Under the pieces are notes generated by a model, which saw only the letters and a program-made list of their open reading frames with translations, did not search any database and had not been told where the DNA came from. This document shows positions 25,132 to 26,550 of a stretch of DNA of 64,000 nt, in pieces. The stretch's first letter is position 1; each line of letters begins with the position of its first letter. The DNA lies in the NCBI RefSeq assembly GCF_013340305.1, contig NZ_BLVP01000002.1, positions 62,001-126,000 on the forward strand, in the 5' to 3' direction. A program made the translations under genes and the position numbers. This stretch comes from Desulfovibrio psychrotolerans (GTDB taxonomy: Bacteria; Desulfobacterota; Desulfovibrionia; Desulfovibrionales; Desulfovibrionaceae).

Positions 25132-25255
25132 GACGGAAACAGGCAGCATTTGAAGAGGTTGCAGCGGGATTCACCGTGCGCACAGTTTTCTTGTTGCCTT
25201 TTCCCGCCCGGACAGGTAGAGGGGGTGTGCCTCAACATATGGATCTCGAATGACG

Positions 25256-25437
25256 GCGGCAGGAGAGACCTTCGCCCGCGCAAGCGGGGCGGAAGGCGCC
25301 GAAGATGTAACTCTTTCAGGCGAAAGGACTGCTGTACGGACGAGCCTCTGGAGAGTCTCCCCTTCCCAGTGGGGAGCACCGAAGGAGCAAGCCGCATCCC
25401 AGTTAGCGGTGAAACTCTCAGGTAAAAGGACAGAGTG
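25256..25437 (+). promoter_or_regulatory. Tandem glycine riboswitch
   Basis: Two adjoining glycine aptamers. Aptamer 1 (~25256-25335): GGAGAG, GGCGCCGAAG, AACTCTTTCAGGC, GAAAGGACTGCTG. Aptamer 2 (~25344-25437): CTCTGGAGAG, GAGCACCGAAGGAGCAA, GAAACTCTCAGGTAAAAGGA, CAGAG closing P1 with CTCTG. The conserved cores are intact in both. Such switches normally turn on glycine cleavage (gcv) or glycine exporter genes. Here no such gene follows: the plus strand has no recognisable frame before the convergent gene that ends at 25762. Confidence 0.92.
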
Positions 25438-25704
25438 GACCATAAAGGCGCTATTGCGCCCGAAATCCAACCTTTTCCTGCCTTTGTGTGCTCCGGAAGG
25501 AGACTTTTCGCGCGGTGTGAGCCGCGGCTCATCCCCCCCTGTCTGCCCTTTCCTGCTCCGTTGTTCGATGATCCTGGCCCCGGTAGTGCTGCGGGCGAGG
25601 CGGAAAAGGCATGTCATCCGCGCTGTGCGCGGTTACATACACGGGGGAGCCGCCGCCATGGGCGGAAACGCTCCTCCTCCTGAGTGGTTTGTTGTTGTGG
25701 TTGC
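25438..25704 (+). other. Riboswitch 3' region with no recognisable target gene
   Basis: Short open frames exist (for example 25611 onwards, starting MSSALCAVTYTGEPPPWAET with a hydrophobic stretch) but none resembles gcvT/H/P or a glycine/alanine transporter. A small hairpin GGCGC/GCGCC (25448-25459) and a GGAAGGAG (25495-25502) with no good start codon are present. This may be a decayed gene start. Confidence 0.5.
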
Positions 25705-25737
25705 GACGGGCCGGGAGGTTATGCCTTCCGGCCCGTC
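25705..25737. terminator. Convergent hairpin, probable bidirectional stop
   Basis: GACGGGCCGGGAGG / TTATG / CCTTCCGGCCCGTC, a 14-bp stem with one mismatch, 24 bp after the minus-strand gene's end. It lacks a U-tract on either strand, so termination efficiency is doubtful. Confidence 0.5.
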
Positions 25738-25761
25738 CGCTTTATGCCGCCGTGCGACGGG

Positions 25762-26550
25762 CTATTCGAATATCTTTTTCAGGCCGGAACCGGCCTTGTC
25801 CAGCACGTTGCCCTGCCCGTCCTTCAGGAGGGGGGCTGCCGCACCCTTGGCGGCGTCCTGCATCTGCTTGAGGGAATCTTGCAGCGCACCGGAAACCGCC
25901 ACGTTCATCTGTCCGCTCAGGGTGTCCAGAATCTGCTGCACGGCCTCGGCAGGGGTTGCGCCGCCGGACTCTTCACCAATGTTTGTCAGGTGGATATCCG
26001 GCAGGGTGAGGGTGAGCCCCTGCCCGCCCAGAGCGGTGAGGGCCATGTTTGCCTTGGCACCGGTGATGCGTAGGTCTTTGATGATGACCTTTTTGGCTGG
26101 CTGGGTCTGTGCGGAACCGGGGGTGGCGTTTTGAGAAGTGCTTTCTTCGCCGCCCACAGTCTGGCGCACGTTGTTGAGCAGGGCGGTGAAGTTGTCTGTT
26201 TTGCCGGATTGCTCATAGGTGAGTTCCGGTTCTTCGATGAGCACCCGTTCTATGATGACGACGTCCTTGGTGACCGTGGAGGTATCCAGCTTCACTTCCA
26301 CAACGCGCAGCTTCATGGTCTGGGGAGCGGCGAAGCCCCGGGGGCTGCCCACTATGAGGCGTTCCAACCTGCCGGAACCGGAGAGGAACGAGACATCCGC
26401 CCTGCGCAGGCTCACCTCTGTGAGCAGCACCTTGGGGCCGACGGTGTTTACCGCCCGGACGATGATGGGGTTTATGGACATGACGGTGGCGATGACGAGG
26501 CCCGCCAGAATGACACCGAGCACGCTCACGAGGATGAGCATTTTTTTCAT
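25762..26550 (-). CDS. AsmA-like membrane-anchored periplasmic protein
   Basis: 262 aa with an N-terminal hydrophobic segment (MKKMLILVSVLGVILAGLVI). The body shows the repeating beta-strand style of AsmA/DUF748 proteins (VLLTEVSLRRADVSFLSGSG, LRVVEVKLDTSTVTKDVVII, VIIKDLRITGAKANMAL), then a Gln/Ala-rich amphipathic tail. AsmA-type proteins are linked to outer-membrane lipid and protein homeostasis; the function of short forms is unknown. ATG 26550 follows GGAGAACTCAC. Monocistronic. Confidence 0.8.
   Translation of the reverse strand: MKKMLILVSVLGVILAGLVIATVMSINPIIVRAVNTVGPKVLLTEVSLRRADVSFLSGSGRLERLIVGSPRGFAAPQTMKLRVVEVKLDTSTVTKDVVIIERVLIEEPELTYEQSGKTDNFTALLNNVRQTVGGEESTSQNATPGSAQTQPAKKVIIKDLRITGAKANMALTALGGQGLTLTLPDIHLTNIGEESGGATPAEAVQQILDTLSGQMNVAVSGALQDSLKQMQDAAKGAAAPLLKDGQGNVLDKAGSGLKKIFE

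Follow-up and report, generated by a model that had tools for sequence, protein, structure and literature searches.

Riboswitches are regarded as elements that act in cis, so that one lacking a gene is easily dismissed as a mis-annotation or as decay. The Listeria RNA AspocR is a neighbour of pocR on the opposite strand. It is antisense to pocR and is controlled by a B12 riboswitch (PMC8079631). Among the SAM riboswitch RNAs SreA and SreB, also of Listeria, SreA, the terminated leader of an operon in cis to it, pairs with a distant mRNA, its target being an unrelated virulence regulator (Loh 2009, via PMC8079631 and PMC7266159). In Rli55 and EutX, transcription of a non-coding effector module farther downstream depends on a B12 riboswitch, and the ANTAR motifs of this effector serve to trap the EutV protein (Mellin 2014, DebRoy 2014; PMC8079631, PMC7266159). 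The authors who report on the SAM-II riboswitch sRNAs of Sinorhizobium do not decide whether these function in trans (PMC9373788). The glycine riboswitches acting in cis on gcvT/gcvH and AlsT have the same aptamers and belong to the same pathway as the locus described here (PMC13104608), with the regulated gene normally next on the same transcript. A computational survey of non-coding RNAs in Oleidesulfovibrio alaskensis G20 gives one glycine riboswitch, assigned to alsT (PMC11124144).

The locus we describe in Desulfovibrio psychrotolerans is a glycine riboswitch without such a gene, followed by a GU-rich stretch, TGGTTTGTTGTTGTGGTTGCG, that is complementary to the leaders of glycine-cleavage genes. 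Unlike SreA it has no gene in cis, its seed module stands apart farther downstream, and its candidate targets belong to the metabolism of its own ligand. These targets are unlinked, whereas AspocR acts on pocR, although AspocR is, and the RNA proposed here would be, a non-coding antisense RNA controlled by a riboswitch. The proposed layout resembles that of Rli55/EutX, the proposed effector being an antisense seed against mRNAs rather than a protein trap. A further likeness is to GcvB of Escherichia coli and Salmonella, whose R1 seed in E. coli, TGTTGTGTTGTTGTGTTTGCAA (MG1655 record), shares GTTGTTGTG, then one base, then TTGC with the GU stretch. GcvB uses R1 against CA-rich sites that lie within ribosome binding sites or next to them, and ACA motifs there are translation enhancers (PMC3879156). 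It has in common with our proposal a link to glycine, a GU-rich seed and CA-rich sites near ribosome binding sites. GcvB however is switched on by the GcvA protein, has no aptamer and regulates genes of amino-acid uptake and metabolism, while the leaders matched by the module in our locus are those of gcvH and gcvT. The Rfam family of GcvB was not among the three matches obtained at E values up to 1 in a scan of 25150-25780. Among the titles and openings of abstracts listed from the open-licence literature, we found no description of a glycine riboswitch acting through a trans sRNA, nor of a ligand-gated antisense sRNA directed at its ligand's own pathway without a cis gene.

The window, that is the whole 64,000 nt stretch of DNA that was analysed, belongs to genome G000, and its coordinates are those of contig C2 minus 62000. 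An earlier note on this sequence had described two glycine aptamers with intact cores, beginning at 25256 and followed by no glycine-cleavage or transporter gene and then by a convergent gene. The covariance-model check confirms both aptamers, each above the cut-off of the Rfam Glycine model RF00504 and adjacent in a tandem arrangement with one probable platform, so that the whole riboswitch spans 25250-25443; the riboswitch is real, and its start lies 6 nt before the one claimed (Table 1). A scan of the whole window at gathering thresholds reports the second aptamer alone, the first coming from a separate RF00504 search. The tandem model RF03166 spans both (25246-25437, in the scan of 25150-25780) at 68.8 bits, below the cut-off of 110 for membership in the glycine-GGAnGA variant. 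These two, the orphan pair, are the only glycine-aptamer matches found in the entire genome (3.79 Mb in 47 contigs). The TTGC part of a promoter-like sequence upstream is common to all ten genomes of the genus in alignment, and a consensus promoter scan found no promoter at this place.

Table 1 Features of the orphan glycine riboswitch locus, in window coordinates
Feature	Position	Strand	Basis and remarks
Promoter-like TTGCCT - 17 nt - TAGAGG, upstream of riboswitch	25194-25222	+	Alignment; weak match to consensus; inferred
Glycine aptamer 1 of tandem	25250-25341 (G000:C2:87250-87341)	+	RF00504, 48.6 bits (cut-off 32)
Glycine aptamer 2 of tandem	25338-25443	+	RF00504, 64.9 bits (cut-off 32)
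Probable expression platform	25428-25481	+	Predicted folds, 10/10 genomes
Hairpin CCGCGC-TGT-GCGCGG before GU module	25618-25632	+	Alignments; G000 fold
GU-rich candidate seed	25685-25705	+	Identical in 10/10 genomes; complementary to gcvH and gcvT leaders
Strong 3' hairpin, likely terminator	25703-25743	+	Folds; stem 25703-25740, then TTT
Convergent neighbour, 262 aa	25762-26550	-	DUF748 match below family cut-off; not a target

The earlier note also holds as to what follows. No glycine-cleavage or transporter gene was seen in 25443-25761, a stretch that is not empty since it carries the GU-rich module, and on the same strand the window holds no gene between the riboswitch and the convergent neighbour at 25762. 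The position in cis before a regulated gene that marks RF00504 members was found neither in the window nor in a form common to the genus. The tandem aptamers, predicted to be intact, are thus confirmed to stand without a cis target gene in the window.

We looked for glycine aptamers in the window's own genome and 58 relatives and found them in 15 of the 59, including all ten genomes of the genus, each of which has the orphan riboswitch. In each of the nine other members of the genus there are two such loci: one precedes an AlsT-type symporter, and the other is the counterpart of the orphan in the window. G000, unlike all nine, has no AlsT-linked glycine riboswitch, and its single AlsT-family gene lies on contig C7. 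The genus has two clades, which differ in the neighbours of the orphan: clade A (G000, G003, G005, G006), in which the riboswitch stands next to a DUF748-like gene of the opposite strand, and clade B (G001, G002, G004, G007-G009), in which it comes after tgt and before an ORF of about 132 aa on the same strand, a DUF748-like homologue beside it being found in none of the six. The orphan loci of all ten genomes align over both aptamers (in G003 a stricter search gave the second only). Within clades the riboswitch is 94-96% identical, and between clades the mean identity runs from 45% over the 60 nt before the riboswitch to 75% over the riboswitch itself, 28% over the linker, 73% over the GU module and 22% over the 100 nt after it. 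Elsewhere in the family, a member of another genus (G011:C41:3000-13000) has a tandem glycine riboswitch seemingly without a clear gene after it, where a terminator-like hairpin and a T run follow within about 40 nt. In G028 and G020 the glycine aptamers precede an ORF, which we take to resemble GrdX of glycine-reductase operons.

The GU stretch is invariant at all 21 bases in the alignment of the ten genomes, and in each of them the module is linked to the riboswitch, 192-291 nt downstream of the second aptamer. At up to two mismatches, a search of 348 genomes of the order returned the ten of the genus and one other, G040 (two mismatches), for which the aptamer search gave no glycine aptamer. 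A 19-base core of the stretch occurs in 12 stretches of a collection of named genomes, of which the three from Halodesulfovibrio all come with the riboswitch and the nine from unrelated organisms all lack a glycine riboswitch at gathering score. The hairpin that precedes the module in the window is replaced in clade B by one of other sequence (ATCGC..GCGAT) and is absent from the RNAalifold consensus. The stem of the 3' hairpin shows three compensatory pairs between the clades in the RNAalifold analysis, each of which may represent a single event. Its T residues number three in G000, a short tail, and more in most of clade B; a consensus terminator scan of the window did not list the hairpin. 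The candidate seed is predicted to be unpaired with probabilities of 0.19-0.47, near the mean of the RNA, and shows no unusual openness; an RNAalifold fold that pairs part of it with the upstream hairpin region, largely through G-U pairs, was not adopted.

A search of the ten genomes with a CA-rich leader pattern gave 261 matches, and gcvH of both clades was among 35 loci read from the matches listed, none of which came from G001, G002, G006 or G008. As gcvH was picked by reading such matches, the test of its leaders is post hoc. In all ten genomes a CA-rich site complementary to the seed lies directly upstream of the gcvH Shine-Dalgarno sequence, with a longest perfect Watson-Crick run of 8-14 nt: 14 nt in G003 and G006, 11 in G000, 10 in five clade-B genomes, 9 in G001 and 8 in G005, where the run extends to 14 with one G-U pair. 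Background leaders, sampled with mechanical gene calls from 400 kb each of G000 (342), G006 (303) and G004 (336), have a longest run of 9 and none reaches that of gcvH. Outgroup gcvH leaders give runs of 0-7 nt (20 scored; gcvH is present in 27 of 29 outgroup genomes). The second gcvH copies (MSEL...) of G001 and G003-G006 have runs of 4-7 nt and a leader without the CA-rich site. Over whole genomes the pattern CACAACAACA..GGAG..ATG had 10 matches in the ten genomes, seven of them gcvH and three singletons, compared with one for the reversed pattern; the 10-mer misses the gcvH leaders in three genomes, G000, G001 and G005. The gcvH sites are predicted to be unpaired with probabilities of 0.98-1.0 in all ten genomes. 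In G000 the gene heads the operon gcvH-gcvPA-gcvPB-lpd, in which the genes for two subunits of the P-protein come next and the last gene, for a pyridine-nucleotide oxidoreductase, is taken as lpd by its position.

Taken genome by genome the match is of uneven strength. Out of 2000 shuffles of the seed, one equalled the gcvH run in G003 and one in G006, 50 did so in G000, 66-120 in the clade-B genomes and 372 in G005. Judged by duplex energy, background leaders equal or surpass gcvH in 1 of 342 cases in G000, 3 of 303 in G006 and 73 of 336 in G004; interaction energies are noisy, and gcvH of G004 is unremarkable by them.

Leaders of gcvT were scored after gcvH with the same seed, leader window and measure, leaving out an eleventh PF01571 match (an 888-aa frame in G007, run 6). 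All ten have perfect runs of 9-13 nt upstream of the Shine-Dalgarno sequence, beginning at -36 to -46 relative to the chosen start, with sites such as CGCAACCACAAC in G000 and CAACCACAACAAC in G009. The gcvT run was reached by none of the 342 background leaders in G000 and by one each of the 303 in G006 and the 336 in G004. In G000 gcvT lies on the same contig as gcvH, about 164 kb away. The mean run over the 20 gcvH and gcvT leaders is 10.2 nt, a value attained by 4 mononucleotide-shuffled and 5 dinucleotide-shuffled seeds out of 5000 each, and shuffled seeds doing as well numbered 7 and 29 of 5000, respectively, for the gcvH leaders alone and 14 and 65 of 5000 for the gcvT leaders alone. At the sensitivity of the aptamer search no glycine riboswitch was found beside gcvH or gcvT in the ten genomes. 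The suggestion in the earlier note that the RNA may act in trans thus gains support from the complementarity, in every genome of the genus, of the GU stretch to both sets of leaders.

Other candidate targets were set aside. In a scored subset of the amino-acid-transporter genes, of which the genomes hold more, the 30 leaders of amino-acid-binding proteins, considered as GcvB-like targets, had runs of at most 7 nt, and a further 15 amino-acid ABC-transporter leaders showed no consistent site by eye. Leaders of the AlsT family (21, with mechanically chosen starts) had runs of at most 6 nt. Genome-wide counts in the ten genomes gave no excess of the complement CCACAACAACAAA at one mismatch (142 against 177 for the reversed sequence) and no clear excess of CAACCACAACAACA at two (1014 against 921); the gcvT site at G009:C3:669436 was already among the one-mismatch matches. 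As the GU-rich seed pairs widely, duplex energies and runs tolerant of G-U pairs do not discriminate and were dropped as measures, with G-U-tolerant runs of at least 11 common in the background (44 of 342 leaders in G000). An amino-acid-binding-protein gene in G003 and G005 (G005:C1:2141812-2141833) has ACAACAAAAGGAG directly before its start and could be a minor further target; its orthologue candidates in G006 and G000 read differently.

Regulation by glycine would be exerted just after the second aptamer, where the closing strand GGACAGAG (25428-25435) can instead pair with downstream sequence in the predicted folds of all ten genomes. With the second aptamer included, this downstream pairing has a probability of 0.59-1.0 in nine genomes and 0.19 in G000, and the closing helix itself has a probability of 0.0 in all ten folds predicted without ligand. 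Judged by eye, G001 alone has a clear U tract downstream of the alternative hairpin, the run of U being shorter in the rest of clade B and slight in clade A. Between riboswitch and module, four of the six clade-B genomes carry another terminator-like hairpin, which is followed by a long T run, also as judged by eye. This linker hairpin reads GGCACCGC..GCGGGC followed by the T run, before the GU module. AlsT glycine riboswitches are expected to be OFF switches. Their platforms also fold into an alternative hairpin after the second aptamer (the G007 row, which had caught the first aptamer, being excluded from the comparison), so that they offer no contrast on the direction of switching. We have a slight preference for an ON switch, in which glycine would close the aptamer and prevent termination, because the closing strand is shared between the second aptamer and the alternative hairpin.

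We consider it probable, on the strength of conservation and complementarity, that the locus encodes a riboswitch-gated antisense sRNA acting in trans on glycine-cleavage mRNAs: an orphan riboswitch that has been kept, and that leads into a segment matching gcv leaders, probably controls the gcv genes by base-pairing. The transcript would start roughly 20 nt upstream of the aptamers and meet its glycine-controlled switch point directly after the second, and where it is not stopped there, transcription would run on into the 3' module made up of the GU-rich seed and the terminator-like hairpin. The full-length RNA, or a processed 3' piece of it, would then pair through the seed with the CA-rich sites that directly precede the Shine-Dalgarno sequences of gcvH, and with it the gcvH-gcvPA-gcvPB-lpd operon in G000, and of gcvT. 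Both the union of riboswitch and module in one transcript and the pairing itself are inferred from sequence. With one sensor and sites at both targets, two unlinked glycine-cleavage units could be coordinated. By analogy with GcvB, repression of translation would be the most likely effect of a seed that covers an ACA-rich enhancer, a view that we hold weakly. Glycine usually induces the cleavage system, and an OFF switch combined with repression would give this usual response. Under an ON switch with repression, also weakly held, abundant glycine would turn the cleavage system down. This would be fitting where that system works in the direction of glycine synthesis, as is reported for Desulfovibrio desulfuricans in work cited in PMC12827605.

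Three other accounts start from the riboswitch and its neighbourhood. According to the earlier note a target gene might have been deleted or have decayed, and the absence from G000 of the AlsT-linked riboswitch present in nine relatives suggests that losses may occur; yet both aptamers score above the cut-off, identity within clades is high, and riboswitch and module are kept in an orphan state in all ten genomes, across two clades with different neighbours, so that we reject decay as exceedingly unlikely. The comparison with relatives that the note proposed, looking for a symporter or gcv gene at the same place, found no downstream gene common to the ten genomes, on which ground we also reject a cis target. 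A candidate would be the 132-aa ORF of the six clade-B genomes, which has the orientation of the riboswitch and lies some 250 nt beyond the 3' hairpin, but in clade A the place is taken by the DUF748-like gene in the opposite orientation, the 3' hairpin stands in between in all ten genomes, and the ORF was not recognised on inspection as a glycine gene; ordinary control of a neighbour in cis is very improbable. The note's other proposal, an unannotated small protein, finds some backing in the four clade-A genomes, each of which has an ORF preceded by a Shine-Dalgarno sequence that crosses the GU stretch, the frame being the same in all four (..WFVVVVATGR..). Its start codon and start position vary among the four, however, and no such ORF is common to both clades, four of the six clade-B genomes having none of at least 10 codons and the other two having unrelated ones of 14 and 17 codons, while the GU stretch is invariant at every base, wobble positions included. 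We judge a small protein very unlikely, disfavouring it less firmly for clade A because of these frames.

The remaining two accept the GU module as functional or its match as fortuitous. The module could be an sRNA gene with its own promoter acting on gcvH and gcvT, next to a riboswitch that gates something else or itself. Such an arrangement would fit the terminator-like hairpin that separates the two in four clade-B genomes, and a hairpin or palindrome with ACATA or ATA before the module in both clades could be an operator and a -10 element. Against it, riboswitch and module stay linked at 192-291 nt in all ten genomes despite differing flanking genes, no other gene for the riboswitch was seen at the locus, no conserved -35/-10 pair was found before the module by eye, and the matched leaders belong to glycine-cleavage genes, which are common riboswitch targets; we regard two separate genes as rather unlikely. 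It is improbable, too, that the CA-rich gcv leaders are simply translation enhancers whose match to the GU stretch is coincidental, the stretch binding for example a protein or another RNA. CA-rich leaders do match many GU-rich shuffles moderately well, and ACA motifs alone enhance translation in Salmonella (PMC3879156), but over the 20 leaders the exact seed outdoes nearly all of its shuffles, perfect matches reach 14 nt in two genomes and 13 and 12 nt in two others, and the site is missing from the 20 outgroup gcvH leaders.

Trans-acting riboswitch RNAs are already known, and what would set a riboswitch-gated antisense sRNA of the kind proposed apart from them is the union of a ligand gate, an antisense seed, targets in the ligand's own pathway and the absence of a cis gene. 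If it is true, a riboswitch without a gene can work on its own as an antisense regulator, gated by its ligand, that coordinates unlinked transcripts of one pathway. Other orphans could then be examined by a simple rule, which is to look behind the riboswitch for an invariant seed that leads into a hairpin and to look for complements of that seed at the leaders of the pathway. We give even weight for and against to the broader view that a single non-coding gene here combines aptamer, switch point and antisense seed, controls the pathway of its ligand wholly in trans, and is the protein-free counterpart of the enterobacterial GcvA-GcvB circuit, a closely similar GU-rich seed having been reached independently. 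It would then be a case of convergence, with GcvB-like seeds serving two unrelated glycine circuits, one in which glycine is read by a protein and one in which it is read by an aptamer.
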